Assembly: GCA_027484825.1 (NCBI GenBank) | Contig: JAIXSE010000023.1 | Location: 1-64,000 of the forward strand | Direction: 5' to 3' | Source of the DNA: Rubrivivax sp. | GTDB taxonomy: Bacteria > Pseudomonadota > Gammaproteobacteria > Burkholderiales > Burkholderiaceae_C | Length of the DNA stretch: 64,000 bases | Part shown: positions 6,311 through 34,145 of the stretch, one piece after another | Layout: each line of letters starts with the position of its first letter | Position numbering within the stretch: position 1 is the first letter of the stretch | Made by a program: the position numbers and the translations under genes | The notes under the pieces: generated by a model | Databases searched by the model: none | Told to the model about the DNA's origin: nothing | The model's input: the letters and a program-made list of their open reading frames with translations, nothing else

Positions 6311-7267
6311 TCATTGAATCTGCCCACTCCCAGGCGCTTGATTCTGCGGATCGGTGAACAGCTCGCCCACGTCCACCGCGTCGAACTTGTAGTGGTTGCC
6401 GCAGAACTCGCAACCGATCTCGACCCCGCCCAGCTCGGCCAGCACTTCATCCACTTCCTTGCGGCCCAGGCCCAGCAGCATGCGGCCCACCCGCTCGCGC
6501 GAGCAGGTGCAGGCAAAGCGCGGGGTCTGCGGTTCAAAGCGGCGCACGGTCTCTTCCCAGAAGAGACGGCGCAGGATGGTGTCGCTGTCCAGCGTCAGCA
6601 GCTCTTCGCTGGTCAGCGTCGCTGCCAGCATGCTGATGCGGTTGTAGGCGTCCTCCATCAGCTCACGCTCGACCCCGGAACTGGCGCCGGCTTCCAGATT
6701 GCCTTCGCCTTCCATCGGCAGGCGCTGGATCAGCAGCCCGGCCGCCATCTGGTCGTTGGCCGCCAGCACCAGCGTGCTGTCCAGCTGTTCGGACTGACGC
6801 ATGTAATGCTGCAGCACCTCGGACAGCTTGTTCAGCGGCTCCCCTTCCGGCCCCACCAGCGACACCAGCCCTTGATACGGCTGCTGCCCGGGCAGGCGGT
6901 CCTTGGGGTCCAGGGTGATGGCGCAGCGGCCTTGGCCATGCGCGTTCAGCATCTGCTGCAAGGTGGCGTCGTCCGCCACCTCGTCGCGGGTCTTGGCGGT
7001 GGCGCGGAAGCTCATGTCCGGCTGCACCTCGGCCACCGCCAGCTTCAGCGGACCGTCCCCCATCACCTGAAAAATCAGCGCGCCGCTGAACTTGATGTTG
7101 GCCTGCATCAGCACACCGGCTGCGGCCATCTGCCCCACCAGGTCGCGAACGGCCGGCGGCAGCGGCTCCTTGCGACGGCTCAGCAGCTCTTTCCAGCTGT
7201 CGTCCAGCCGCACCAGCACGCCGCGCACCGGCAGGCCTTCAAACAGGAACTTGTGCAGTTCGCTCAT
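6311..7267 (-). CDS. hslO: Redox-regulated chaperone Hsp33
   Basis: Hsp33 is a cytosolic holdase switched on by oxidation: loss of zinc and disulphide formation unfold its C-terminal switch. The 318-residue sequence has the family N-terminus (FLFEGLPVRGVLVRL) and, near the C-terminus, the zinc-binding Cys-x-Cys (CTC) followed about 30 residues later by Cys-x-x-Cys (CEFC), so all four redox cysteines are present. It begins 10 bp after the gamma-carbonic anhydrase gene on the same strand, so the two are probably co-transcribed. A weak G+C hairpin near 6291-6305 downstream may be part of its transcription end. Confidence 0.96.
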   Translation of the reverse strand: MSELHKFLFEGLPVRGVLVRLDDSWKELLSRRKEPLPPAVRDLVGQMAAAGVLMQANIKFSGALIFQVMGDGPLKLAVAEVQPDMSFRATAKTRDEVADDATLQQMLNAHGQGRCAITLDPKDRLPGQQPYQGLVSLVGPEGEPLNKLSEVLQHYMRQSEQLDSTLVLAANDQMAAGLLIQRLPMEGEGNLEAGASSGVERELMEDAYNRISMLAATLTSEELLTLDSDTILRRLFWEETVRRFEPQTPRFACTCSRERVGRMLLGLGRKEVDEVLAELGGVEIGCEFCGNHYKFDAVDVGELFTDPQNQAPGSGQIQ

Positions 7268-18688: not shown

Positions 18689-21550
18689 ATGAACACCTCC
18701 TCCACCCGCCCGGACCTTCGATCCGCCCAAGGATCGCACGGCCCGGCCCAGATCAAGTCCCGAGCGCCCCGCCCCGCCCCCCATCAACTCGCCGCTGCGC
18801 TTGGATTGACGGCCACTTTATCTCTGCTTTCGCCCCTGTCCGTACTGGCGCAAGCCACGGGCACCTCCGCGGCCGACACCGACGCCGCCCCGCGCAAGCT
18901 CGAACGCGTCGAAGTCACCGGCTCGGCCATCAAGCGCCTGGCCGATGAAGGCGCCCTGCCCGTGCAGGTCCTCACCCGCCAGGACATCATCAAGGCCGGC
19001 GTGACCACCGCCGCCGAACTGCTGGCCACCGTCTCCGCGGCCAGCAAGGGCCTGACCGACGGTGTGAGCATCGGCACCGGCGGCTTCAAGGACCAGATGG
19101 GCCTGAACTCGGCCAACCTGCGCGGCCTGGGCACCTCCTCCACCCTGGTGCTGCTCAACGGCCGCCGCATGGCCAACTTCGCCTCGCCGGGCGACGACCA
19201 GGGCGTGGACCTGAACAACATCCCCGCCGCCGCCATCGAACGGGTGGAAGTGCTGCTGGACGGCGCCTCCGCGCTCTACGGCACCGACGCCATCGGCGGC
19301 GTCGTCAACTTCATCACCCGCAAGGACTTCCAGGGCGTCCAACTGGACGCCTACGGCGGCTTCTCCGGCGAAGGCGGCGCCGGCAAGCGCACCGGCACCG
19401 TCTCCGCCGGTTACGGCGACGTGGGCCGCAACGGCTTCAACGTCTTCGGCGTGCTGGACTTCCAGCGCACCGACGCCCTGCGCACCTCGCAGCGCGACTT
19501 CATTGCCGACCTGAAGATTCCCGAACGCCTGCCGCATCTGCTCTCCGGCGTGACCTTCCCCGGCAACATCCGCCTGACCAGCGATCAGCGGGACTATCTG
19601 CAGTCGGTGAACTTCGCCATCAACGGCAAGCCCATCGTCAACCGCACCATCAACCTCAGCGCCCCCACCTGCCAGCCGCCGCACACGCTCTATCTGCCCA
19701 ATGGCATCGGCGGCGAAGACGCCTGCACCTACGACTACATGCGGGACCTGGAGCTCTATCCGAAGACGGAAAAGACCGGCTTCCTCGGCCGCGGTGTCTT
19801 CAAGATCAATGACAACCACCAGGCCTTTGTCGAATACGCCTACAGCCGCGCCCGCAGCTGGTACGTCGGCACCAGCAACCGCATCAATGCTCAGTTGGAC
19901 GTCTCCAAGATCCCGGTCCTGGACGCCACCGGACTGGGCGATGCCCTGCCGGAAGACCGCAGCATCGAGGTCCGCACCCGCATGATCGAAGGCGGCAACC
20001 GCGCCAGCCAGCTCACCAGCACCGGCAGCCGGGTGGTGGTCGGCATGAACGGCACTGTCGCCGGTTGGGACTATGACTGGGGCTACAACCACAGCGTCAA
20101 CCGCGTGTCCGACCGGGACGTGCAAGGCTACTTCCCGGAAGACCAGACCCTGCAAGCCTATGCCGACGGTCTGCTGAACCCCTTCGGCCCGTCCAGCGCC
20201 GAAGGGCTGGCGCTGCTGAAGTCGCTCAACATCAATGAGGAAGTGCGCCGCGCCCGAGGCTCGATGGACTCGCTCGATGCCAAGATCACCCGCTCGCTCA
20301 CCAAGCTGGAGGGGGGCGATCTGGCCGTGGCGCTGGGCGCCGAGTTCCGCCGCGAGCGCTCCAAGTCGGCCGCCAGCGACCTGCTGATCTCCGACAACAT
20401 CCTCGGCGACGGCTCCCCGGGCGACGCCCAGTTCACCAACAACTCGCGCAAGGTCTGGGCGGCCTACGGCGAACTGCTGGCCCCCTTCGCCAAAGGCTGG
20501 GAGGCGCAGTTCTCCATCCGCCATGACCGCTACCAGAAGATCGGCGCCACGACCAATCCCAAGCTGGGTCTGCGCTGGACGCCCATGCCGGACCTGACCC
20601 TGCGCGCCTCCGCGGGCACCGGCTTCCGTGCGCCGTCCATGGACGATCTGTACCGTCCCACCAAGGTCGCCTTCACCTCCACCCTGCCGGACCCGGTCTG
20701 CATGGCCGAGAACGACAACGACCTCAGCTACTGCGCCGACGCCTGGGAGACCCACACCTTCTCCAACCCCAAGCTGAAGCCGGAGAAGTCCCGCCAGTTC
20801 AGCATCGGGGTGCTGACCGACCCCACGCCCAACCTCAGCGTCGGCGTGGACTACTGGAACATCCAGAAGCGCAACCTGATCACCACCCTGGGCGACGACG
20901 TGATCCTGTCCAACCTGGACAAGTACGAGCCGCTGGTGCACCGCTACAACGAGGACGAGGGCCAGCCCGGCTGCGACTACGACCCGGACGACTCCGCCAT
21001 CTGCTTCATCGAGCTTCGCAAGGAAAACCGCGGTCGTGAAAAGGCCTCGGGCCTGGACCTGACCCTGCAAGTGCGCTCCAACCCCACCGAGTGGGGCCGC
21101 TTCTCGGCCAAGCTGGTGGGCACCTGGACGCTCAGCTCCAAACGCCAGACCGGCGATGGCGACCCCTACATCAGCAACCTGGGCCGCTTTGTCACCGATG
21201 GCGTGGTGCAGCGCTGGCGCCACCGGCTCAACCTGGACTGGTCACGCGGCGACTGGAGCCTGAACCTGGCCAACACCTTCTACAGCGGCTACACCGACCA
21301 GAACTCCGCCATCGACACCGACACCGGCACGGTGGTGGCCAAGAACAAGGTGAAGGCGTATTCGCTGTGGGACCTGTCGGGCGGCTGGGACGCGACCAAG
21401 TCGCTGTCCCTGCGGGCGGGCATCAAGAACCTGTTTGACACCGCGCCGCCATTCTCCAACCAGGCCTACTTCTTCATCTCGGGCTACGACCCCAGCTACA
21501 CCGACCCGCGCGGCCGCTTCTTCTACATGAGCGGCAGCTACCGGTTCTGA
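18689..21550 (+). CDS. TonB-dependent outer-membrane receptor
   Basis: A 953-residue outer-membrane transporter powered by TonB. After a long N-terminal region with a signal peptide (hydrophobic LAAALGLTATLSLLSPLSVLAQA) comes a TonB-box-like ERVEVTGS. The plug domain follows, with NLRGLGTSSTLVLLNGRR and RVEVLLDGASALYGTDAIGGVVNF, then a 22-strand barrel region ending in an aromatic Phe as the family requires. The subtype resembles receptors for plant-derived or peptide compounds rather than classical siderophores, but substrate assignment is not possible. ATG 18689 has an AGGGA site. It ends 20 bp before the convergent MocR regulator. Confidence 0.92.
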   Translation: MNTSSTRPDLRSAQGSHGPAQIKSRAPRPAPHQLAAALGLTATLSLLSPLSVLAQATGTSAADTDAAPRKLERVEVTGSAIKRLADEGALPVQVLTRQDIIKAGVTTAAELLATVSAASKGLTDGVSIGTGGFKDQMGLNSANLRGLGTSSTLVLLNGRRMANFASPGDDQGVDLNNIPAAAIERVEVLLDGASALYGTDAIGGVVNFITRKDFQGVQLDAYGGFSGEGGAGKRTGTVSAGYGDVGRNGFNVFGVLDFQRTDALRTSQRDFIADLKIPERLPHLLSGVTFPGNIRLTSDQRDYLQSVNFAINGKPIVNRTINLSAPTCQPPHTLYLPNGIGGEDACTYDYMRDLELYPKTEKTGFLGRGVFKINDNHQAFVEYAYSRARSWYVGTSNRINAQLDVSKIPVLDATGLGDALPEDRSIEVRTRMIEGGNRASQLTSTGSRVVVGMNGTVAGWDYDWGYNHSVNRVSDRDVQGYFPEDQTLQAYADGLLNPFGPSSAEGLALLKSLNINEEVRRARGSMDSLDAKITRSLTKLEGGDLAVALGAEFRRERSKSAASDLLISDNILGDGSPGDAQFTNNSRKVWAAYGELLAPFAKGWEAQFSIRHDRYQKIGATTNPKLGLRWTPMPDLTLRASAGTGFRAPSMDDLYRPTKVAFTSTLPDPVCMAENDNDLSYCADAWETHTFSNPKLKPEKSRQFSIGVLTDPTPNLSVGVDYWNIQKRNLITTLGDDVILSNLDKYEPLVHRYNEDEGQPGCDYDPDDSAICFIELRKENRGREKASGLDLTLQVRSNPTEWGRFSAKLVGTWTLSSKRQTGDGDPYISNLGRFVTDGVVQRWRHRLNLDWSRGDWSLNLANTFYSGYTDQNSAIDTDTGTVVAKNKVKAYSLWDLSGGWDATKSLSLRAGIKNLFDTAPPFSNQAYFFISGYDPSYTDPRGRFFYMSGSYRF

Positions 21551-21570: not shown

Positions 21571-22962
21571 TCACACCGGCTTGGTGAGGAAGGCCATGGC
21601 GCGCGGATCATCGATGTAACTCACGTTGATCCGCAGCCATGGGCAGACCGCCATATCCGGCGTGAACACCGACCCGGGCGAAAAGCTGACCCCACGCGCC
21701 GCCGCCCGCGCGACCAGCTCGGTGGCGTCGTCAATGCCCGGCCAGCGGGCCCAAAGGAACATGCCGCCGGACGGGCGGCAGAACAGCTGCCAGCCGGCCG
21801 TGGTCAGCACCCGGCTGGCCTGCGCCAGTTGGCGGTCCAGTCGGCGCCGCAGCCGCTCCACCAGCTTGCGGTAGCTGCCGTTCTCCAGCATCACCGCCAG
21901 CACCTCCTCCGCAAAACGTGAGGACGTGATGCTGGTGAGCATCTTCAGGTCGACCAGCCGCTTGATGAGCGCCGGCGCAGCCGCCACAAACCCCACCCGC
22001 AGCGAGCACGACAGGCTCTTCGAAAAGCTCCCGATGTAGATGACGCGGTTGAGCTGGTCCAGTGCCGCCAGGCGCGGTGTGGTGCTGGTCTGGAAGTCGG
22101 CATAGATGTCGTCTTCCACGATGTTGAAGTCGTGCCGCTCCGCCAGTTGCAGGATGCGGTGGGCCGTCGCCACCGAGATGGTGCTGCCGGTCGGGTTCTG
22201 GAACACGCCGTTGAGGAAGAAGAGCTTGGGCTGATGGGTCTCGAGCAGGCGCTCCAGCGCCTCCACATCCGGCCCGCTGGGCGTGCGCGGCACCCCCAGC
22301 ATGCGGATGCCCTGCAGCTTCAGCAGGCCGAAGAGGTTGTAGTAGCCCGGGGTCTCCACCAGCACCGTGTCGCCCGGCCGCAGCAGCAGACGCACCAGCA
22401 GGTCCAGCGCCTGGCTGGCGCCGCTGGTCAGCAGGAACTGATTGACCGGGGCCTCGATGTCCATGCTGTAGAGACGCCGGCTGAGCGCCTTGCGCAGGCT
22501 GGGACTGCCCAGCGGCGTGCCGTAGTCAAACAGCCCGCTGCGGTCCCGCCGCACGGTCTGGCGGATGGCGTAGGCCATGTCCTCGCTCTCGCGCCAGCTG
22601 TCGGGCAGCCAGCCGCAGCCCAGCTTGACGCTGTCGTTCTGCTCGCGGAAGAGGTGCCAGAGCTCGTCGGTGACGCTCTCCGCATCCCGCGGGTTGGCCA
22701 TGCCGGCGGACGGGAAGCGCATGGCGCCGTCCTCGACGTAATACCCCGAGCCAGGCTGGGAGCGCGCCAGACCGCGAGTGACCAGGCGGTCATAGGCTTC
22801 GATGACGGTGTTGCGGCTCACGCCCAGGTTGGTGGCCAGGCTGCGGATGGACGGCAAGCGGGCGCCCGGGGCGTACACCCGGCGGCCGATATGGGCCTGC
22901 AGGCCCTGCTCCACCTGGTCGGCCAGCGGGATGTCGGAGTCGCGTTGGATCTGGAGATTCAT
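21571..22962 (-). CDS. MocR family PLP-dependent transcriptional regulator
   Basis: A 463-residue fusion of a GntR-type winged helix (about residues 8-78; GARLPSIRSLATNLGVSRNTV) to a class I aminotransferase-like domain that binds PLP as effector cofactor. The latter keeps QNPTG (255-259), Asp285 in EDDIYADF, the PLP lysine Lys315 in GSFSKSL and Arg322. MocR proteins usually regulate a divergent neighbour, here the MFS exporter starting at 23091; GGGTAC repeats lie between them. Cycloserine attacks PLP in aminotransferase-fold proteins, so this regulator could sense the product of the adjacent cluster; that is inference. ATG 22962 gives the family N-terminus. Confidence 0.92.
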   Translation of the reverse strand: MNLQIQRDSDIPLADQVEQGLQAHIGRRVYAPGARLPSIRSLATNLGVSRNTVIEAYDRLVTRGLARSQPGSGYYVEDGAMRFPSAGMANPRDAESVTDELWHLFREQNDSVKLGCGWLPDSWRESEDMAYAIRQTVRRDRSGLFDYGTPLGSPSLRKALSRRLYSMDIEAPVNQFLLTSGASQALDLLVRLLLRPGDTVLVETPGYYNLFGLLKLQGIRMLGVPRTPSGPDVEALERLLETHQPKLFFLNGVFQNPTGSTISVATAHRILQLAERHDFNIVEDDIYADFQTSTTPRLAALDQLNRVIYIGSFSKSLSCSLRVGFVAAAPALIKRLVDLKMLTSITSSRFAEEVLAVMLENGSYRKLVERLRRRLDRQLAQASRVLTTAGWQLFCRPSGGMFLWARWPGIDDATELVARAAARGVSFSPGSVFTPDMAVCPWLRINVSYIDDPRAMAFLTKPV

Positions 22963-23000
22963 GCTGAGGCTCAGTCGCGGACACTGTTTCGTAAACGGAT

Positions 23001-23048
23001 GGGTACGGAGGGTACAGGATAGGCTGAACTGTGCCTGTGTTTGTACCC
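23001..23048. promoter_or_regulatory. Candidate MocR operator region (GGGTAC repeats)
   Basis: In the 128-bp space between the divergent MocR and MFS genes, GGGTAC occurs at 23001-23006 and 23010-23015 as a 9-bp-spaced direct repeat. Its reverse complement GTACCC lies at 23043-23048. MocR regulators bind spaced direct and inverted repeats in such divergent promoters, so this is the best operator candidate. Confidence 0.5.
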
Positions 23049-23090
23049 ATGTCCTGGATATCCTGCAATGCAGGCCACCCCGAGGACCCG

Positions 23091-24284
23091 ATGAAGACTC
23101 CGAGACAAGCCCACCCGTCATGGCTGGCCGCCGCGCTGTGCGTCATGACCACCGGTGTGAATCTGCAGGCGCCGCTGTATGCCGCTTATGCGAGGGCGGA
23201 CGGCGTCGGCGTCATGGCAACGACCATTGCCTTCTCCTTCTATGTGGCCGGCGTGCTACCGGTGCTGCTGGCGCTGGGGGGCCTGTCGGACCGCATCGGG
23301 CGCAGGCGGGTGATGCTGCTGGCGCTGGCCCTGTCCGCCGTGGGCACGCTGCTGATGCTGCTGCATCCGCATGTGAGCACGCTGGCGGTGGCGCGGCTGG
23401 TGCTGGGAACCGGCACGGCCTTGATGTCGGCCACCGCCACGGCCTACATGCTGGAGCTGTTCGGCGCGGCGCGGGCGTCCCGCGCAGCCAACTGGGTGAC
23501 CGCCAGCACCTCCATCGGATTCGGCCTCGGCCCGGTGCTGACCAGCGTCTGCCTGATGGTGCAGGAGTCCCTTGCCCCGCCCAGCTTCCTGCTGCATCTG
23601 GCGGCCGTGGCCGTGTCTGCCGTGCTGGTCTGGCGGCTGCCGGAGACCGCGCCGCGCAGCGGCCCGAAAGCGCCGATGCTGCGACTGCCGTATTTCACCG
23701 CGGACGGACTGTGGTTTGGCGCGGCCATCCTGCTGTGCTGGGCTACGACCGGGCTGGTGATTTCCATCCTGCCGTCGGTGCTGGCGCCGCACGGCTTGTC
23801 CCGATACTCCGGGCTGGCGACGATGCTGGCCATCAGCTGCGGCCTGCTGTTCCAGCCGATGGCCCGGCGGCAGGAGCCGCGTCACGCGGTCCGCATCGGG
23901 CTGGTGGTGCTGGTGCCGGCCTATGCGCTGCTGGCCTGGGGCGCGTGGTCCGGCACCTTGCTGGCGGTGTTGCTGGGCGCACTGGCGGCCAGCAGTGCCT
24001 GCTACGGCTTTGTGTACCTGGGGGGACTGGCCGGGACGGCGGAAGCCGCCGGCACCCAGACCACCCGCGCCAGCGCCGCCTACTTCCTGATGGCCTATGT
24101 GGGCTTCAGCCTGCCGGTGATCTTCACCGGGCTGCTGGCGGACCGCTACGGCATTGCCACCGCTCTGCTCACCTTCGGACTGGTGCTGGCCGCTGGCGCG
24201 CTCGCCCTGCTGAGCCGGCCGGTGCGGGTGGTGGACCTGTCCGACCTGCCGACGCGCCCGGCCGAGGCCCTGCTCAAGCGTTGA
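23091..24284 (+). CDS. MFS efflux transporter, candidate exporter of the cycloserine-like product
   Basis: A 397-residue major facilitator protein with about 12 helices and the loop 2-3 signature GGLSDRIGRRR at residues 63-73, typical of proton-driven drug exporters. A second, N-terminal-half motif GTGTALMSATATAYMLELFG follows. It starts at ATG 23091 after GAGGAC and stops 8 bp before the convergent end of the ATP-grasp gene. It is divergent from the MocR regulator. The Streptomyces D-cycloserine cluster also includes a membrane efflux protein (DcsJ), so a role in export and self-protection is likely, though not proven. Confidence 0.85.
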   Translation: MKTPRQAHPSWLAAALCVMTTGVNLQAPLYAAYARADGVGVMATTIAFSFYVAGVLPVLLALGGLSDRIGRRRVMLLALALSAVGTLLMLLHPHVSTLAVARLVLGTGTALMSATATAYMLELFGAARASRAANWVTASTSIGFGLGPVLTSVCLMVQESLAPPSFLLHLAAVAVSAVLVWRLPETAPRSGPKAPMLRLPYFTADGLWFGAAILLCWATTGLVISILPSVLAPHGLSRYSGLATMLAISCGLLFQPMARRQEPRHAVRIGLVVLVPAYALLAWGAWSGTLLAVLLGALAASSACYGFVYLGGLAGTAEAAGTQTTRASAAYFLMAYVGFSLPVIFTGLLADRYGIATALLTFGLVLAAGALALLSRPVRVVDLSDLPTRPAEALLKR

Positions 24285-24292
24285 CCGTGGAC

Positions 24293-25201
24293 TCAGGCGC
24301 CCACACGACGAGCGATCGCCTGCGCAAAGCGCAGCGCACTCCCGTCGGAGAACGGCAGGTTCAGCGACGGCTCGCACAGCTCGAGTTCCAGCACCCGGGG
24401 CTGGCCCTGCTGATCCCGGATCAGGTCCACGCGGGCGTAGAGCAGCGGCGCCTGCAATTGCAGATGACGGGCCGCAGCCGCCAGTGCCTGCCCGGCGACC
24501 GCCTGCTCCTGGGCATCGGCCTGGCGGGCCTGGCGCAGGTCCTGCGTCGGCACATGCACCGTGCCGTCGGCCATCAGCATGGCGCTCTTGCGGATGGCAT
24601 GGCTGTAGTGGCCGTCGAAGAAGGCCAGATTGGTTTCGCCGTCCCGGTCGATAGCGCTGAGGTAGGGCTGCAGCATCACATGGCAGCCCCGCTGCTGAAG
24701 CCGGACGATGTAGCGATGGGCCTGGTGCGCCGCCGACCGCGGAAAGCGCTGCACGTCCCGGGAATAGGCGCCGACGGTCGGCTTGATGACGAATTCCCCG
24801 GACTGCGGATGCCCGGCCATGAAGGCCTGCAGCGCTGCCTGCGACGCCTGCTCGGGCAGGTCAGGTGCCAGGAACTCGGTCGGCACGACCGGCACGCCAT
24901 GCCGGGAGAGATCCGCCAGATACCGCTTGTCCAGCGACCAGCGGGAGACCTCTGGCGGATTGAAGAGCCGCGTGCGCTGCGCCACCCGGTCGCACCAGGC
25001 CAGAAACGCCGGCAGGTCCTCCACGTAGTTCCAGGGGGACCGCAGCACCGCCGCATCAAAGTGCCCCCATGACACCTGCGGATCTTCCCAATCACAGACC
25101 TGCGCCTGCAGACCCACCGTCTGACAGGCCTTGAGCAGCAGCGGCATGTCGACGTCGATCGGCAGGCTGCCACGACTGGTGACCAAAGCGAGAGTTTTCA
25201 T
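24293..25201 (-). CDS. ATP-grasp ligase, DcsG-like (O-ureidoserine cyclo-ligase candidate)
   Basis: A 302-residue ATP-grasp protein. The N-terminal substrate lobe shows the cycloserine/hypothetical ATP-grasp pattern DAAVLRSPWNYVEDLPAFL and SLDKRYLADLSRHGVPVVPT. The nucleotide lobe shows FVIKPTVGAYSRDVQRF. The metal-binding end is YARVDLIRD with VLELELCEPSL. DcsG in Streptomyces closes O-ureidoserine to cycloserine with release of CO2 and NH3, using ATP. This is the last gene of the six-gene operon; a 81-bp gap with a hairpin separates it from the SDR gene. ATG 25201 is preferred; a TTG four codons upstream is the alternative. Assignment rests on family and context. Confidence 0.82.
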   Translation of the reverse strand: MKTLALVTSRGSLPIDVDMPLLLKACQTVGLQAQVCDWEDPQVSWGHFDAAVLRSPWNYVEDLPAFLAWCDRVAQRTRLFNPPEVSRWSLDKRYLADLSRHGVPVVPTEFLAPDLPEQASQAALQAFMAGHPQSGEFVIKPTVGAYSRDVQRFPRSAAHQAHRYIVRLQQRGCHVMLQPYLSAIDRDGETNLAFFDGHYSHAIRKSAMLMADGTVHVPTQDLRQARQADAQEQAVAGQALAAAARHLQLQAPLLYARVDLIRDQQGQPRVLELELCEPSLNLPFSDGSALRFAQAIARRVGA

Positions 25202-25228
25202 GATGTTTGGCAATGAACGTGAATGTGA

Positions 25229-25246
25229 AAGGGCCGAACGGCCCTT
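25229..25246 (-). other. Hairpin between SDR and dcsG-like gene
   Basis: On the transcribed strand AAGGGCC, a GTTC loop and GGCCCTT form a stable 7-bp stem 28 bp before the dcsG-like start. No real T-run follows, so it is more likely an RNA-processing or translation-tuning element than a full terminator. Confidence 0.4.
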
Positions 25247-25282
25247 GAGCGAGGAGGCCGTTGGGCCGTGGGCGCCGCAGCT

Positions 25283-26152
25283 TCACCATGGAATCTGGCG
25301 GCCCATGTGCACGTACTGGCCGGTCGGTCCCTCCTCGCCCAGCAAGGCCATGCGCACACTGGTCCATGCGCCCTGCCGCGGCTCCAGTTCTCCGGCACCA
25401 TCGTTCATGGCGGTCTTGGTGTAGCCGGGGTGCACGGCGTTGACCTTGATGGCGGTCTCCCGCAGCTCATAGGCCAGGTGCACCGTCCAGGCATTGAGCG
25501 CGCTTTTGGAGGCGCTGTAGGCCGGCAGCGACTTGAACATGTCGCTGTAGGCATAGGACGCCGGATCGCTGTGGGTGCCCATGGACGCCAGCAGGCTCGA
25601 GACGTTGACGATGCGCGCGGCCGGGGCACGTCTGAGCAGCGGCAGCATGGCCTGGGTGACGGCCACCACGCCGAAGAGATTGGTGGCGAAGGTCTGGTGC
25701 CACAGCGACAGCGGCTGCTGGGACGGGGAACGACCATAAGGCTCGACGCGGATGGCGGCGTTGTTGATGAGGATGTCCAGGCGACCGTGGCGCTGCTCGA
25801 TCCCATCGGCCGCCGCCTGGATGCTGCGCGGGTCGGTCACGTCGATCACCACCGCCTCGACCGCCAGTCCTTCGCTGGCCAGCTGCCGGGCGGCTTCGGT
25901 CGTGGCTTCCGCGCTGCGACCGCTCAGCAGGACCTGGATGCCAGCCTCGGCCAGTTGCCGGCAGATCTCCAGGCCAATGCCTCGATTGCCTCCCGTCACG
26001 AGCGCTACGCGGCCACGGGCAGTCCCGTCCGAGATCCCTGCAAACGCAAGTGACGTGCCTTCAGCACCCAGGGGCTGTGCACCGGCCACGCTGGACGGCG
26101 GCATGACGTCGATCGTGTCTTGAAGACGCTGGGGAACACTCTGTGCAGACAT
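25283..26152 (-). CDS. Short-chain dehydrogenase/reductase inside the cycloserine-like operon
   Basis: A 289-residue SDR with an extended N-terminal tail of about 45 residues before the Rossmann start VALVTGGNRGIGLEI. It has NNAA, the catalytic Ser in NVSSLLAS and YSASK with catalytic Tyr and Lys, as in carbonyl-reductase-type classical SDRs. The known cycloserine pathway has no reductase step that needs it. The gene starts 9 bp after the MetX-like gene and so is part of the same transcript. It may tailor the product, supply a precursor or detoxify; none of these is shown. Confidence 0.88.
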   Translation of the reverse strand: MSAQSVPQRLQDTIDVMPPSSVAGAQPLGAEGTSLAFAGISDGTARGRVALVTGGNRGIGLEICRQLAEAGIQVLLSGRSAEATTEAARQLASEGLAVEAVVIDVTDPRSIQAAADGIEQRHGRLDILINNAAIRVEPYGRSPSQQPLSLWHQTFATNLFGVVAVTQAMLPLLRRAPAARIVNVSSLLASMGTHSDPASYAYSDMFKSLPAYSASKSALNAWTVHLAYELRETAIKVNAVHPGYTKTAMNDGAGELEPRQGAWTSVRMALLGEEGPTGQYVHMGRQIPW

Positions 26153-26161
26153 GGCGAGCCC

Positions 26162-27373
26162 TCAAACAGCGGTCAGGGTGGAGGAAGCCTGCGGGGCACG
26201 GAGCCGCTCGGCAGGATGAGGAAGCCCCGACGGATCGCTCCCCACCAGCCGACCACTGTCGATGCCGGACAGGAAGGCCGCGATCGGCGGCCCGAACTGC
26301 GCCAGGTCAGCGAGGAACGCATCGTGGCCCGCGAGCGAACTCACTTCCCGATAGCTCACCCCCACCCCGCCCGCCTGCAGGCCCTGCGCAATCTGCCGCT
26401 GCTGCGACACCGGGAACAGGAAGTCGCTGTCTACGCCCATGACCAGCGCGCTGTCCAGTTGCAGGTGCCGCAGTGCGGCGTCCGCATCTCCCTGCGCCTC
26501 ATCCCCCAGATCGAACCCATCCATCGCCCGGCTCAGCGCTAGGTAGGCGTTGGGGTCGAAAGCCCGCACGAAGCGCTGCGCATGGCAGGCCAGGTAGCCC
26601 TCCACCGCGAAGCCCATCGCAGGCGCGCCGGCGGCAGCGGCGAGGGCCGGATCGAGCCGCTGCCGACCGAAGCGCTGGGTCCAGTCCTGCGTGGACCGGT
26701 AGCTGAGCAGCCCCAGCTTGCGGGCCGCCACCATGCCGCTGAGCGGCCTATCGGCGGCCTCATAACAGCCTTGCTGCCACAGCGGATCCGACTGGATCAG
26801 CTCCCGCTGCAAGGCTCTGAGCGCGATGGCAAACGGCTCGGCGTGGACCGCGCCGGAGAGATTGATCATGTGCCGCGTCAGCCCCGGATGCCGCGCGACC
26901 AGGGACAGTGCCGTCATGCCGCCCATCGACGCGCCGACCACCACGGCCAGTTGCTCGATGCCCAGCGACCGCACGACATGGGCGGCCGCATCGGCCAGGT
27001 CTTCCAGCGACAAGGGCGGGAAGTCCGGCCCGTAGCGCCGGCCGGTGGCCGGGTGGACGGACGCAGGACCGGTCGAGCCCTTGCAGCTGCCCAGCGCATT
27101 GACGCACACCACAAACCACCGATCGGTATCCACCGGCTTGCCGGGCCCGACCATGCCGTCCCACCAGCCGGGCGCGGGATGGTGCTCATGGGCGCAGACA
27201 TGGGCGTCGGGGGACAGGCCGGTGAGGATCAGCACGGCATTGCTGCGTGCAGCATTGAGACGCCCCACCGTCTCGTAGGCCATGCGGGCGCCGGTCAGTG
27301 AGCCGCCGCGCTTGAGCTTGAATCCGTCGGGAAGCGCCACGAAGCGAGTGGCGGGCGGTATGAATTCCATCAT
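26162..27373 (-). CDS. MetX-like O-acetyltransferase, DcsE-like (L-serine O-acetyltransferase candidate)
   Basis: A 403-residue alpha/beta-hydrolase of the homoserine/serine O-acetyltransferase family. The triad is visible: Ser149 in VVGASMGGM, Asp317 in VDSDFLFP and His350 in LAGHDAF. It also has the oxyanion/substrate segment VVCVNALGSCKGSTGP. In the D-cycloserine pathway DcsE makes O-acetyl-L-serine from serine and acetyl-CoA. Primary-metabolism metX in betaproteobacteria is normally followed by metW; here it sits between a cysteine-synthase homologue and an SDR, favouring the secondary role. The start at 27373 has AGGAG 6-7 bp upstream; a longer frame would run into the dcsD-like gene. 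Confidence 0.85.
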   Translation of the reverse strand: MMEFIPPATRFVALPDGFKLKRGGSLTGARMAYETVGRLNAARSNAVLILTGLSPDAHVCAHEHHPAPGWWDGMVGPGKPVDTDRWFVVCVNALGSCKGSTGPASVHPATGRRYGPDFPPLSLEDLADAAAHVVRSLGIEQLAVVVGASMGGMTALSLVARHPGLTRHMINLSGAVHAEPFAIALRALQRELIQSDPLWQQGCYEAADRPLSGMVAARKLGLLSYRSTQDWTQRFGRQRLDPALAAAAGAPAMGFAVEGYLACHAQRFVRAFDPNAYLALSRAMDGFDLGDEAQGDADAALRHLQLDSALVMGVDSDFLFPVSQQRQIAQGLQAGGVGVSYREVSSLAGHDAFLADLAQFGPPIAAFLSGIDSGRLVGSDPSGLPHPAERLRAPQASSTLTAV

Positions 27374-27419
27374 GGACAACTCCTGGATGCTGAGGTCTGC
27401 AGGACAGGCGATCTGCCGG

Positions 27420-28445
27420 TCAGGCGGGCTGGGCTTCCACCGGGTCCGCCGCGTCCACGGCGTGCGCCAGCATGTGCACCGTCGGCCCGCCAAGGTCCGC
27501 CAGCCAGTCGTCGTCCGAGCCCTCGTTCATGCCCTCGAGCAGGAAGGTGGAGAGGTAGCGCTCGCCGGTGTCCGGCAGCATGGCCAGCAGCACCGAGCCG
27601 GCCGGGGCCTCACGGGCCACGTCCAGCGCCGTTGCCACCGTGGCGCCGGCGGAGAGGCCCACAAAAATGCCCTCCTCCGCCGCCAGCCGCCGCGACGTGT
27701 CCCGCCCGACCACTTCATCGATCGGCCGCAGCTCATCAATCACACTCGGGTCCAGCACGCTGGGCACGAAGTTGGGCGCCCATCCCTGGATCTGGTGCAC
27801 CTGCCAGGGCTGGCCCGCCAGCACCGCCGCATTGGCCGGCTCCGCGGCCACCACCCGCACCTGCGGACGGGCCAGCTTGAGCATCTGGCCCACGCCGGTC
27901 AGCGTGCCGGTGGTGCCGAAGCCGGTGACGAAGTAGTCGAGCCGCTTGCCGGCGAAGTCGCTGAGGATTTCGGCGGCGGTGGTCTCGCGGTGGAAGGCCG
28001 GGTTGGCGGGGTTGTCGAACTGACGGGCGCGGAACCAGCCGTGGCGGGCCGCGAGTTCATCGGCGATCCGGTTGCCCCCGCTGCTGCCCAGCGCGGCCGG
28101 GAACAGCAGCACCTTGCCGCCATAGGCGCGGATCAGCTTGCGGCGCTCGATCGAATACGAATCCGACATCACCGCCACAAACCGATACCCGCGCGCCGCC
28201 GCCACCATGGCCAGCGCAATGCCGACATTGCCGGAGGTGCATTCGCAGATCGTGTCGCCCGGCTTGAGCAGGCCCTTGGCTTCAGCGTCCAGCACAACGG
28301 CCAGTGCGAGGCGGTCCTTGACCGACCCGCCAGGGTTGAAGGATTCGACCTTGACGTAGAGGCTCACATGCGGCGGCGCCACGCGATGCAGCTTGACGAT
28401 GGGGGTGCGGCCGATGGTGTCGAGGATGCTGTTGTAGAGAGGCAT
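27420..28445 (-). CDS. Cysteine synthase-like PLP enzyme, DcsD-like (O-ureido-L-serine synthase candidate)
   Basis: A 341-residue fold-type II PLP enzyme of the O-acetylserine sulfhydrylase family. Lys43 in NPGGSVKDR binds PLP; the substrate loop TSGNVG (70-75) has Val where the canonical loop has Thr. The cofactor phosphate loop is GFGTTGTLTG (175-184). DcsD joins O-acetyl-L-serine with hydroxyurea to give O-ureido-L-serine. Here it follows the arginase-like gene by 88 bp and precedes the acetyltransferase that would provide its substrate. AGGA lies 7 bp before the start. Ordinary cysteine synthesis remains possible for the enzyme alone, but the operon argues against that. Confidence 0.87.
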   Translation of the reverse strand: MPLYNSILDTIGRTPIVKLHRVAPPHVSLYVKVESFNPGGSVKDRLALAVVLDAEAKGLLKPGDTICECTSGNVGIALAMVAAARGYRFVAVMSDSYSIERRKLIRAYGGKVLLFPAALGSSGGNRIADELAARHGWFRARQFDNPANPAFHRETTAAEILSDFAGKRLDYFVTGFGTTGTLTGVGQMLKLARPQVRVVAAEPANAAVLAGQPWQVHQIQGWAPNFVPSVLDPSVIDELRPIDEVVGRDTSRRLAAEEGIFVGLSAGATVATALDVAREAPAGSVLLAMLPDTGERYLSTFLLEGMNEGSDDDWLADLGGPTVHMLAHAVDAADPVEAQPA

Positions 28446-28533
28446 GGTGGTGTCCTGGTGAGAGGGATGAGGATGGGGATGTGAAGGGATCGAAGGATGG
28501 ATCGAAGGATGAATAGCGCGATGAATGAAGCGA

Positions 28534-29370
28534 TCACGAGCGGCACACGGCCGGGCGCTCCCCGCGTTGATCGAATACGGGCGCCACGATGTCCAGAATC
28601 ACGTCGAGCGCTGCGGCATTGACCGCTTCATCGAGCGAGGCGTTGAACTCGGCCAGTTCGATGCCGCGCAATTGCGCCGCGGGGATCGCCTCGAACAGCG
28701 CGCGGATCTGCGACGGATGCAATCCGTTGGGTACGACGTAGTCGGCCGGCAGATGCCCCGGCTCCAGCACATCCCAGTCGATGTGCACCCAGACGGGGGC
28801 TTGCCCGATGGCCGCCAGCACCGCTTCGGGCGTGACCTGCGCGGGAGGCAGGATGCGCACGCCGGCCTGGGTGAGCAGCGCCTGCTCCGCCGCGTCGATG
28901 TCGCGGGCACCGACCAGCACCACCTGGCGGGGCTGCAGGCCGGCGCCGTGGCCGCTGTCCCACAGCCCGCAGGCGCCGGCCAGCACCATGCCGCCGAGGT
29001 AGCCGGAGCCGGTGGTGTCCGGCGTGTTGAAGTCGCCATGTGCATCGATCCAGAGCACCACCGCGTCGGGATGCTCCTGCGCCACGCGAGGCAGGCTGGC
29101 CAGGCTCGCCGAGCAGGTGTTGGACAGCATCACCGTCAGGGGCTGGCTGCGCAGGCTGCGGTCGATGGCGTCGCGCAGGCCCAGCAGCGTGTCGCGGGCT
29201 TGCGGCAGGCTGTCTCGCCAGTCGTCCTGCGCAGCAGGCTGCGGCTGGCCGATGGCGCGGATGCCAAACCCATAACGCTGCTGCAGGGCCTGCGCCGTGC
29301 GGGCGGCGCCTTCGATCATGCGCGGAGCGCGGTCGGCCACGCGGCCTTGGGACACGATCAGTTCAATCAT
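28534..29370 (-). CDS. Arginase-like hydrolase, DcsB-like (N-hydroxy-L-arginine amidinohydrolase candidate)
   Basis: A 278-residue ureohydrolase-fold protein. The binuclear metal motif WIDAHGDFNTP (Asp109, His111, Asp113) and HIDWD (Asp198, Asp200) are intact. The usual GGDHS metal-ligand segment is replaced by LSNTCSAS, placing Cys86 at the His position, and the SGNLHG segment with the arginase general acid/base His reads SGYLGG (Gly126). These are the two active-site differences known for DcsB, which cleaves N-hydroxy-arginine, not arginine, to release hydroxyurea. The start overlaps the stop of the previous gene as ATGA, so the two are translationally coupled. Confidence 0.9.
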   Translation of the reverse strand: MIELIVSQGRVADRAPRMIEGAARTAQALQQRYGFGIRAIGQPQPAAQDDWRDSLPQARDTLLGLRDAIDRSLRSQPLTVMLSNTCSASLASLPRVAQEHPDAVVLWIDAHGDFNTPDTTGSGYLGGMVLAGACGLWDSGHGAGLQPRQVVLVGARDIDAAEQALLTQAGVRILPPAQVTPEAVLAAIGQAPVWVHIDWDVLEPGHLPADYVVPNGLHPSQIRALFEAIPAAQLRGIELAEFNASLDEAVNAAALDVILDIVAPVFDQRGERPAVCRS

Positions 29371-30131
29371 GGTGTGGAGGTGCTGGTGGAGAGACGTTGG
29401 AGGAAGGGGCACTGGTCGGCGCGCGGACCGTTGTGGTCCAGCAGGCCGTACTGCCACCATTCGCGGCTGTCGGCGCCGAAGAAGCCCAGTTGGGGGGCGT
29501 GCGGCTGGCCGTCATAGCGCTCGATGCGCTGGCGAATGTTGGTGCGGACCTGGCGGCCGCCGGGGGTGTTGCCCGCGAAGATGTCAAAGCGCTCCCGCGG
29601 GTTGATCACGAAGAGAAAGTGACGGCCCAGGTTGCGGCTTCGGCGCGCCTGATGGGCCGGATGGCTCATGTTGACGAACAGGGGCATGCCGTCGAAACAC
29701 ATGGACCAGTCGGCGGCATCGGGGTTCTCTCCGACGTGGTCGGGCCATGGGGCCGGGTCTTGTTCATGCAAGGCCTGCAGCACGCGCCATCCGAAGGCGT
29801 GATAGGCCTCGGTGGCATCCGCCTCGACAGCGGCGCGGGAGAAACCCACCACCAGCGGATAGGCCGTATCCAGGCTCCCATCCCAGGCACGGGAGAGATG
29901 GACATACTCGCTCAAACCCGCAGCGAGGTGCCGGAGTCCGGTGTTTTTCACATCCGGCACAAATATGAAGCGGATGAGTTTTTTCTTGAAGGCATTCTTC
30001 GAAAAAACACACGGAAAACCGGAGTCTCCGGACAGTCTGGATTCCAGATCGTGCAATATCTCCTTCCACCATGCGGGTGAATCACTGGATATTTGTGCCT
30101 GCGTCAGAAGCGGTGAGGACAAACCGTTCAT
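29367..30131 (-). CDS. YqcI/YcgG family protein, DcsA-like (haem-dependent L-arginine N-hydroxylase candidate)
   Basis: A 254-residue soluble protein of the YqcI/YcgG family. Typical segments are FPCVF (39-43), MPLFVNMSHPAHQARRSRNL (149-168), FVINPRERFD (174-183) and NIRQRIERYD (198-207). DcsA of the D-cycloserine cluster belongs to this family and is a haem protein that hydroxylates the guanidine of L-arginine. Here it is the first gene of the operon and is coupled by an ATGA overlap to the DcsB-like hydrolase that would act on its product. ATG 30131 is used; a TTG six codons upstream is the alternative. AGGA lies about 10 bp before the ATG. Confidence 0.85.
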   Translation of the reverse strand: MNGLSSPLLTQAQISSDSPAWWKEILHDLESRLSGDSGFPCVFSKNAFKKKLIRFIFVPDVKNTGLRHLAAGLSEYVHLSRAWDGSLDTAYPLVVGFSRAAVEADATEAYHAFGWRVLQALHEQDPAPWPDHVGENPDAADWSMCFDGMPLFVNMSHPAHQARRSRNLGRHFLFVINPRERFDIFAGNTPGGRQVRTNIRQRIERYDGQPHAPQLGFFGADSREWWQYGLLDHNGPRADQCPFLQRLSTSTSTP

Positions 30132-30474
30132 GAATGATGATTCCTGCAAACGGCCACGGCGGGGCCAGGCCTGGCGCCAAGCAGCCGCCAGGGGGACGTG
30201 AAAAAGCGGGGGAATGCGCGGAACCGAAGCGCCCGTGTCAGGCCGGCGGGAGCCTGGCCAGGAGACCGTCTTTCATTATTTGAAACCCGAATATCAAGCG
30301 ATTCAGTTCAGCGACGGGCTCAGGATATCCAGACCGGAAACTTTGAAGAAGGTACGCTTTGGATGAATTAAATAGGTCTGTTACCGACGCACATTTGGGC
30401 CGAACACCCCTGTTCGTGGCATTGAAATATGCAGCGCACGCTCCGACGCATCCGGGTTCGATAACCGTTTGGCG

Positions 30475-33305: not shown

Positions 33306-34145
33306 TCAGCGCCGCGGCCCCGCCGCCTTCACAAGCTGCACCTCAAACAGCTTGGGCCAGAGCTTGCCGGTCACGAACAGGCGTTTGGCCTTGGCGTCGT
33401 AGGCGATGCCGTTGGGTACGTCCTCGCCCTGCGCGTCAGGATTGCGTTCCGTCATCAGACCGGTCAGGTCGATCCAGCCGGTGACCTTGCCACTGGCCGG
33501 ATCGATGCGCGCAATGCGGTCGGTCTGCCAGATGTTGGCCAGCACCTCGCCCTCCACCCATTCCAGCTCATTGAGCTTCTCCACCGGCTTGCCGCCCGCC
33601 GTCACCCGCACGCGGCGCGTCTCCTTGAAGGAGACCGGATCGATGAAGCGCAACTCCGGCGTGCCGTCGCTCATGATCAGCTCCTTGCCGTTCTGGGTCA
33701 GGCCCCAGCCTTCACCGGCATAGCTGAACTTGCGCCACAGTTTGAGAGTGTTGATGTCCAGCACATAGCCGATCTGGTCGGTCCAGGTCAGGCCGATGAC
33801 GCGGTCGCCCCAGTTCGTGATGCCTTCCCCGAAGACTTCGGCCGGCAGGCTGGTGTCCATCACCACCTCGCCGGTCTCCAGCTTGACCTTGCGGATGCCG
33901 GAGCGGCCCTTCAGGCCGGTGCTCTCCCACATGAAGCCGTCCTTGAAGAACAGGCCCTCGGTGAACGCGCCGCGGTCGTGGGGATAGGCCTTCACCACCC
34001 TCACGGTGTAGACGGGCAGGCCCGCATCGGCCGCCGTGGCCGCAGGCGCTTGCAGATGCAGCGCCAGGGCGCCGACCGCCAGCAGGCCCTTGCCGGCCCA
34101 GGACATCAGGGCCCGACGGCCCATGGGAGACAGGATGGTGCGCAT
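33306..34145 (-). CDS. Glutaminyl-peptide cyclotransferase (plant/bacterial-type beta-propeller)
   Basis: A 279-residue exported enzyme that cyclises N-terminal glutamine to pyroglutamate. A signal peptide (GLLAVGALALHLQAPAATA) precedes a five-bladed propeller. Family motifs are PHDRGAFTEGLFF, WESTGLKGRSGI, GLTWTDQIGYVLD, MSDGTPELRFIDP, LNELEWVEGEVLANIW and PNGIAYD near the C-terminus. It is divergent from the iron-uptake operon and convergent with the secreted protein gene; the Fur box region between the operon and this gene may influence both. Confidence 0.9.
   Translation of the reverse strand: MRTILSPMGRRALMSWAGKGLLAVGALALHLQAPAATAADAGLPVYTVRVVKAYPHDRGAFTEGLFFKDGFMWESTGLKGRSGIRKVKLETGEVVMDTSLPAEVFGEGITNWGDRVIGLTWTDQIGYVLDINTLKLWRKFSYAGEGWGLTQNGKELIMSDGTPELRFIDPVSFKETRRVRVTAGGKPVEKLNELEWVEGEVLANIWQTDRIARIDPASGKVTGWIDLTGLMTERNPDAQGEDVPNGIAYDAKAKRLFVTGKLWPKLFEVQLVKAAGPRR

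Follow-up and report, generated by a model that had tools for sequence, protein, structure and literature searches.

Does a betaproteobacterium carry genes for an antibiotic pathway of the cycloserine type and, if so, which enantiomer would it make? The question is raised by a gene cluster in a 64,000-nucleotide stretch of Rubrivivax sp. DNA (contig JAIXSE010000023.1, positions 1 to 64,000; hereafter the window). Cycloserine is used in the clinic against tuberculosis, and the Streptomyces gene cluster is the only one for it that we know to have been characterised. The window contains an intact cycloserine-type cluster of a variant that lacks the racemase gene dcsC, and the locus almost certainly encodes a cycloserine-type pathway. 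The best explanation of the whole, to which we give an even chance, is a racemase-less pathway leading most likely to L-cycloserine, with export by a major facilitator superfamily (MFS) protein and control by a MocR-type regulator. A search of the open-licence literature did not turn up any description of a cycloserine cluster that is proteobacterial or lacks the racemase; the founding paper lay outside its reach, so absence from print does not follow.

An intact cycloserine-type cluster

The dcs-type set consists of six co-directional genes on the minus strand, running from 30131 to 24293. Together with the adjoining transporter and regulator genes they give eight reading frames, all intact from ATG to stop. 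An initial annotation had proposed six co-directional genes with five Dcs families among them, and both the frames and the families were borne out by Pfam, NCBIfam and solved structures. The ATGA coupling it described corresponds to the overlap of dcsA and dcsB at 29367–29370, and the MFS gene it placed alongside was found on the plus strand, convergent with dcsG. The absence of dcsC and the identification of the sixth co-directional gene as a short-chain dehydrogenase/reductase (SDR) gene are additions to that account. The six genes are as follows.

29367–30131, minus strand: dcsA-like gene, YqcI/YcgG-family heme oxygenase (PF08892, 200.8 bits; AglA structures, E 9.8e-24)
28534–29370, minus strand: dcsB-like gene, arginase-fold N-hydroxyarginine hydrolase yielding hydroxyurea (6lug match; DAHGDF and DWDV motifs)
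27420–28445, minus strand: dcsD-like gene, O-ureido-L-serine synthase with a cysteine synthase fold (3x43 match)
26162–27373, minus strand: dcsE-like gene, L-serine O-acetyltransferase with a MetX fold (3vvl match)
25283–26152, minus strand: SDR gene, probably dcsF (Pfam adh_short, 171 bits; TGGNRGIG and YSASK motifs)
24293–25201, minus strand: dcsG-like gene, ATP-grasp cycloserine synthetase with Ser89, Gln220 and Leu222 in its own numbering (NCBIfam NF058666; 6jil)

Among solved structures, the DcsB-like protein matched 6lug with 64% identity (E 6.6e-116; 390 bits versus 77 for the best other arginase), the DcsD-like protein matched 3x43 with 81% identity (E 2.5e-172; 576 bits versus 289 for the best cysteine synthase) and the DcsE-like protein matched 3vvl, labelled homoserine O-acetyltransferase in the structure table, with 61% identity (E 8.7e-149; 499 bits versus 235 for the next-ranked enzyme of another kind). 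The sole match of the DcsG-like protein was 6jil (59% identity, E 3.9e-114), which was also the top fold match of its predicted structure (mean predicted local distance difference test score 85.5); the protein passed the NCBIfam model NF058666 with 482 bits against a cut-off of 360. We take all four matched chains to be from S. lavendulae. For 3vvl, the DcsE primer given in PMC10214352 codes for the N-terminal end of this protein. Since solved DcsA structures do not exist, the DcsA-like protein was compared with DcsA of the cluster L068, to which it is 60% identical; the DcsG of L068 is 88% identical to 6jil.

The cluster was then placed among 25 distinct typed clusters from two phyla: five from Roseateles, the genus to which the window genome belongs and whose count includes the window cluster, one from Ramlibacter, one from a Legionella metagenome-assembled genome (MAG) and 18 from actinobacteria, of which the two Streptomyces clusters L014 and L069 are closely related. 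The fetched stretches around them range from 9.6 to 25 kb. The gene order A-B-(C)-D-E-SDR-G recurs in all 25 clusters. Orthology and this conserved order strongly support a cycloserine-type pathway, the genes being predicted orthologues of the Streptomyces dcs pathway.

The initial annotation had itself allowed that the five proteins might best match primary-metabolism enzymes, or might not occur together in related genomes. Four of the five are far closer to Dcs enzymes, DcsA having been compared through L068, and the conserved order extends to five of the 16 genomes of the window's genus. We consider it very unlikely that these are primary-metabolism paralogues, or a decayed and silent cluster without a cycloserine-type product. 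The missing dcsC of the published set and the 11 of 16 genus genomes without DcsG would agree with such a reading, but every frame is intact, the scores against Dcs enzymes are far above those against CysK, MetX and arginase, and the order is kept across the five Roseateles clusters at 67–94% protein identity.

Occurrence of DcsG across genomes

The DcsG cut-off was passed by five of the 16 genomes of the window's genus, by one of 369 in the class and by two of 250 in the family, both of the latter from that genus. Nine of 392 Streptomyces genomes passed as well, and two other actinobacterial orders contributed six of 397 and three of 345 genomes. When named genomes were scanned by pattern, 12 loci were obtained: three from Roseateles, six from actinobacteria and one each from the Ramlibacter, Thalassovita and Legionella MAGs. 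Roseateles depolymerans DSM 11813 and R. terrae CECT 7247 are both carriers of the cluster. Carriage on plasmids was considered and set aside, as all seven DcsG matches among 72,556 plasmid records were below 60% identity.

In another 287 of the 392 Streptomyces genomes the DcsG matches all fall short of the cut-off and probably represent another ATP-grasp family. Such a related family is common in Streptomyces, and its scores reach roughly the DcsG cut-off. No dcsA, B, D or E match was present at six fetched loci below or bordering the cut-off, namely L072 and L073 (two of the nine Streptomyces hits, just above it), L078 (from the window's class) and L079–L081 (Streptomyces), the last four lying below it. 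Because L072 and L073 pass the NCBIfam cut-off (370–377 bits) in the absence of the other genes, that cut-off may admit paralogues.

Absence of the racemase gene and the expected product

In PMC8142540 and PMC12039745, DcsC is described as an O-ureidoserine racemase. No dcsC was found in the window cluster, where the dcsB–dcsD gap is 92 bp, and no DapF match was present in the 25-kb stretch around it. The whole genome gave one DapF-type gene, a housekeeping gene on another contig, which scored 247 bits on a DcsC hidden Markov model (HMM); the Ramlibacter DcsC scored 527 bits on the same model, which had been built without it.

Clusters are designated C+ when dcsC lies between dcsB and dcsD and C− when it does not; L020, a Thalassovita MAG cluster cut off inside dcsE, is excluded from all such counts. 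Ten clusters are C+, with a DapF-like gene at this position, and 15 are C−, including all five from Roseateles. A DapF search of all 15 C− genomes found a single gene in 14 and a second in G473. The second G473 gene was rejected as a DcsC, being 32% identical to one and scoring 112 bits on the HMM. This HMM scoring covered the C− genomes other than G390, G744, G757, G660, G1137 and G918, in which DapF genes were counted only. The SDR was also dismissed as a substitute racemase, being present in all ten C+ clusters. In the Actinorugispora cluster L016, a decayed DcsC C-terminus of ~41 residues (~6555–6855, E 1.2e-5) lies just upstream of dcsD, indicating that dcsC loss happened at least once; the other 14 C− dcsB–dcsD gaps gave no significant DcsC match.

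From these gene identities we infer the following reactions for this strain. DcsA would hydroxylate L-arginine, and DcsB would free hydroxyurea from the resulting N-hydroxyarginine. DcsE would acetylate L-serine, and DcsD would join hydroxyurea to the acetylated serine to give O-ureido-L-serine. DcsG would then close the ring with ATP, most likely acting on the L substrate where DcsC is lacking and so forming L-cycloserine, which the MFS protein would export under a MocR-type regulator that binds pyridoxal 5′-phosphate (PLP). The DcsG of S. lavendulae takes the D form. Without DcsC and its inversion of the amino acid, the simplest product is L-cycloserine, and we judge the chances to be evenly poised that it is the main product of the window cluster. 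The initial proposal of cycloserine or a relative thus stands on orthology and gene order, whereas a route to D-cycloserine as in Streptomyces is not established, dcsC being missing. L-cycloserine is reportedly a natural product of Erwinia uredovora, which our literature search did not confirm.

DcsG residue 220 and racemase status

DcsG tends to follow racemase status, with one clear exception in Ramlibacter. Residue 220 is Leu in nine of 11 C+ DcsGs, Phe in one and Gln in one, the solved S. lavendulae DcsG being counted as C+ on literature grounds. In the 15 C− DcsGs it is Gln in 13 and Phe in two (L016 and L087), and never Leu (Fisher p 1.8e-5, ancestry ignored). Before Ramlibacter was typed, with 24 clusters in the comparison, no other column among the 1739 ungapped ones of six proteins was as clean as position 220. 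Among the first 19 DcsG sequences (L013 and L020 set aside) five columns separated C+ from C−; once the PDB sequence was removed from this set, the numbers of separating columns were five in DcsG, one each in DcsA, DcsD, DcsE and the SDR, and none in DcsB. Six later clusters fitted at position 220 in four cases, with Leu or Gln, and carried Phe in the other two. With these six added, the fully diagnostic columns fell from five to zero, and the idea of diagnostic residues was reduced to a tendency.

The Ramlibacter cluster (L096 plus L013), initially set aside because a contig end cuts it, turned out to have its dcsC on another contig. Its dcsC stands together with a Gln220 DcsG; Gln220 by itself is thus no sign of L specificity, and the residue was abandoned as a marker of racemase loss. 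In the model of the window DcsG, the region around residues 200–220 is mostly without regular structure and has the lowest confidence in its part of the model (block means 80, 71, 63 and 78). ATP-grasp enzymes have a mobile active-site loop, as in D-Ala-D-Ala ligase (Ddl), and the low confidence fits such a loop.

Repeated changes of racemase status

Racemase status has changed several times among the clusters. The best tree of the combined A, B, D and E proteins needs five changes (bootstrap range 4–6), its starred branches force three, and a single C+ clade is rejected (approximately unbiased test, p-AU 1.2e-6). In this tree the C+ Ramlibacter cluster is the sister of the C− Roseateles clusters, with support of 99/97. 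The careful DcsG tree needs two changes, and without Ramlibacter it places nine C+ rows on one side of a branch, although with support of only 37/26. Quick trees needed four changes for DcsG, four for DcsA, five for DcsB, six for DcsD and four for DcsE; without Ramlibacter these numbers were three, four, five, five and four, respectively. As the quick and careful counts differ, the contrast shown by the DcsG tree is method-dependent. A separate DcsG history in cluster L090 was not significant (p-AU 0.379).

Divergence between the two classes showed an excess of 0.037 in DcsG relative to the other proteins, a value reached by a fraction of 0.0002 of 5000 label permutations, and the same permutations gave no excess in DcsA, DcsB or DcsE. 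Before Ramlibacter was typed, two independent pairs on well-supported branches both agreed with expectation, a number too small to reach significance.

Weighing the two enantiomers

A broader reading of these patterns, to which we give somewhat less than an even chance, is that racemase-less clusters are L-cycloserine pathways, dcsC having been repeatedly lost and DcsG retuned to the L substrate, in actinobacteria as well as in Burkholderiales. Several observations weigh against L-cycloserine as the product of the window cluster. A single C+ clade is not rejected by the DcsG tree (p-AU 0.109), and the four changes in the quick DcsG tree equal those for DcsA and DcsE. DcsD also shows a between-class excess, smaller at 0.011 (permutation fraction 0.0044), and both the label permutations and the Fisher tests ignore ancestry. 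No DcsG column splits C+ and C− completely, Ramlibacter carries both dcsC and Gln220, and the independent contrasts number only two or three. The window genome encodes Alr and other racemases, which could work in trans, and its completeness of 95% (36 contigs) makes an overlooked dcsC unlikely but possible. Strong Ddl copies number four in G1137 and three in G918, two C− genomes from outside Streptomyces.

The main rival is an ordinary D-cycloserine pathway in which a housekeeping or promiscuous racemase, such as DapF or Alr, acts in trans and makes dcsC dispensable; we hold this to be a sizeable but tentative possibility. The sister cluster in Ramlibacter agrees with it, pairing dcsC with a Gln220 DcsG that is 65% identical to that of the window, as do the DapF and Alr-type genes of the window genome and the name of the NCBI family that the window DcsG matches, D-cycloserine synthetase. 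The ten C+ clusters, however, keep a specific DcsC despite a housekeeping DapF wherever one was searched for, and the DcsG residues track dcsC status in most clusters. In addition, a second Ddl lies near none of the C− clusters within the fetched stretches.

A cluster-linked Ddl is a plausible shield against D-cycloserine. Within the fetched stretches, which differ in length, three of ten C+ clusters have one and none of the 15 C− clusters does (Fisher p 0.052), which we count as weak evidence; the Ddl of L088 lies 6.6 kb past dcsG. Ddl copy number in whole genomes, tried as a class marker, was clean in the Streptomyces genomes searched and failed outside Streptomyces.

The SDR raises a further alternative, in which the product is related but different, for example uncyclised O-ureido-L-serine or an SDR-modified cycloserine. 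All 25 typed clusters, C+ and C− alike, have the SDR between dcsE and dcsG, and its Rossmann motif is intact in the window, yet the E. coli route of PMC10214352 uses DcsABCDEG only and needs no seventh enzyme. This equal presence in C+ clusters, together with an intact DcsG orthologous to the solved synthetase, makes a different product improbable in our view. The start codon of the SDR is uncertain, with ~47 N-terminal residues beyond the aligned part of most relatives, and the SDRs of L018 and L086 lack the YSASK motif.

If an L product is indeed made, these clusters would provide a natural series for the change of stereospecificity in an ATP-grasp enzyme and a genetic basis for L-cycloserine. 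A six-gene cassette would then switch the handedness of an antibiotic, with the likely targets shifting from D-alanine enzymes to PLP enzymes of L-amino acids. A Gram-negative, racemase-less version of the cluster in any case widens the set of possible cycloserine producers, and the name of the NCBI family may give its DcsG the wrong enantiomer.

Transport and regulation

Next to the six genes lie a proposed exporter, a regulator and two candidate control regions.

23091–24284, plus strand: MFS transporter, proposed exporter (Pfam MFS_1, 97.9 bits)
21571–22962, minus strand: MocR/PdxR-like regulator, divergent from the MFS gene and carrying a PLP-binding aminotransferase domain (GntR, 64 bits; Aminotran_1_2, 133.5 bits)
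22963–23090, no strand assigned: MocR–MFS intergenic region, possible operator (GGGTAC/GTACCC boxes at 23001–23006, 23010–23015 and 23043–23048)
30320–30355, minus strand: candidate promoter element preceding dcsA (GTACCTTCT at 30347–30355; TATCCT(GA) at 30320–30327)

The MFS gene adjoins the cluster in all five Roseateles, with relatives in the Ramlibacter (73% identity) and Legionella MAG (39%) clusters. EamA-type transporters occur in the fetched stretch of 16 of the 18 actinobacterial clusters, in both classes; identity to the query was 77–100% in 14 and 37–41% in L016 and L091, and no match was found in the stretches of L018 and L086.

The MocR gene is likewise kept in all five Roseateles. 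Its product scored 273.7 bits on the NCBIfam PdxR model, under the cut-off of 320, and MocR-type regulators with 28–30% identity were found in six of the 18 actinobacterial clusters (L015, L016, L019, L087, L089 and L091). As cycloserine reacts with PLP, these regulators could sense it through their PLP-binding domain. Two or three GGGTAC/GTACCC boxes lie at like positions in the MocR–MFS intergenic region of each Roseateles cluster, and GTACCTTCT with TATCCT, read by eye, recurs upstream of dcsA in all five as a putative promoter. The element TGGATATCCTG recurs, reversed, in the MocR–MFS region of the window, and its occurrence in both this and the dcsA upstream region hints at shared regulation. 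The cluster is flanked by genes for a TonB-dependent receptor (18689–21550) and a glutamine cyclotransferase (Glu_cyclase_2, 33306–34145).

Comparison with known systems

The DcsA-like protein belongs to the same YqcI/YcgG oxygenase family as AglA and the guanitoxin enzyme GntA, which act in pathways different from dcs; it differs from GntA in reaching only 50 bits on the GntA model, for which the cut-off is 145. The Ramlibacter sp. MAG cluster shares with the window the MFS family and both Gln220 and Leu222 of DcsG, but it has dcsC, and its two stretches gave no MocR match. The Streptomyces katrae cluster and other C− clusters (L014–L017, L066, L067, L069, L070, L087 and L090) have the same A-B-D-E-SDR-G arrangement without dcsC, and differ from the window in having an EamA transporter within the fetched stretch. 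The D-cycloserine cluster of S. lavendulae has a layout of ten genes, dcsA–J. In contrast to it, the window cluster has no dcsC and no adjoining Ddl, has Gln220 rather than Leu220 in DcsG and uses an MFS rather than an EamA transporter. The two nevertheless share orthologous A, B, D, E and G genes in identical order, and the SDR is identically placed in L068, a near relative of the S. lavendulae cluster.

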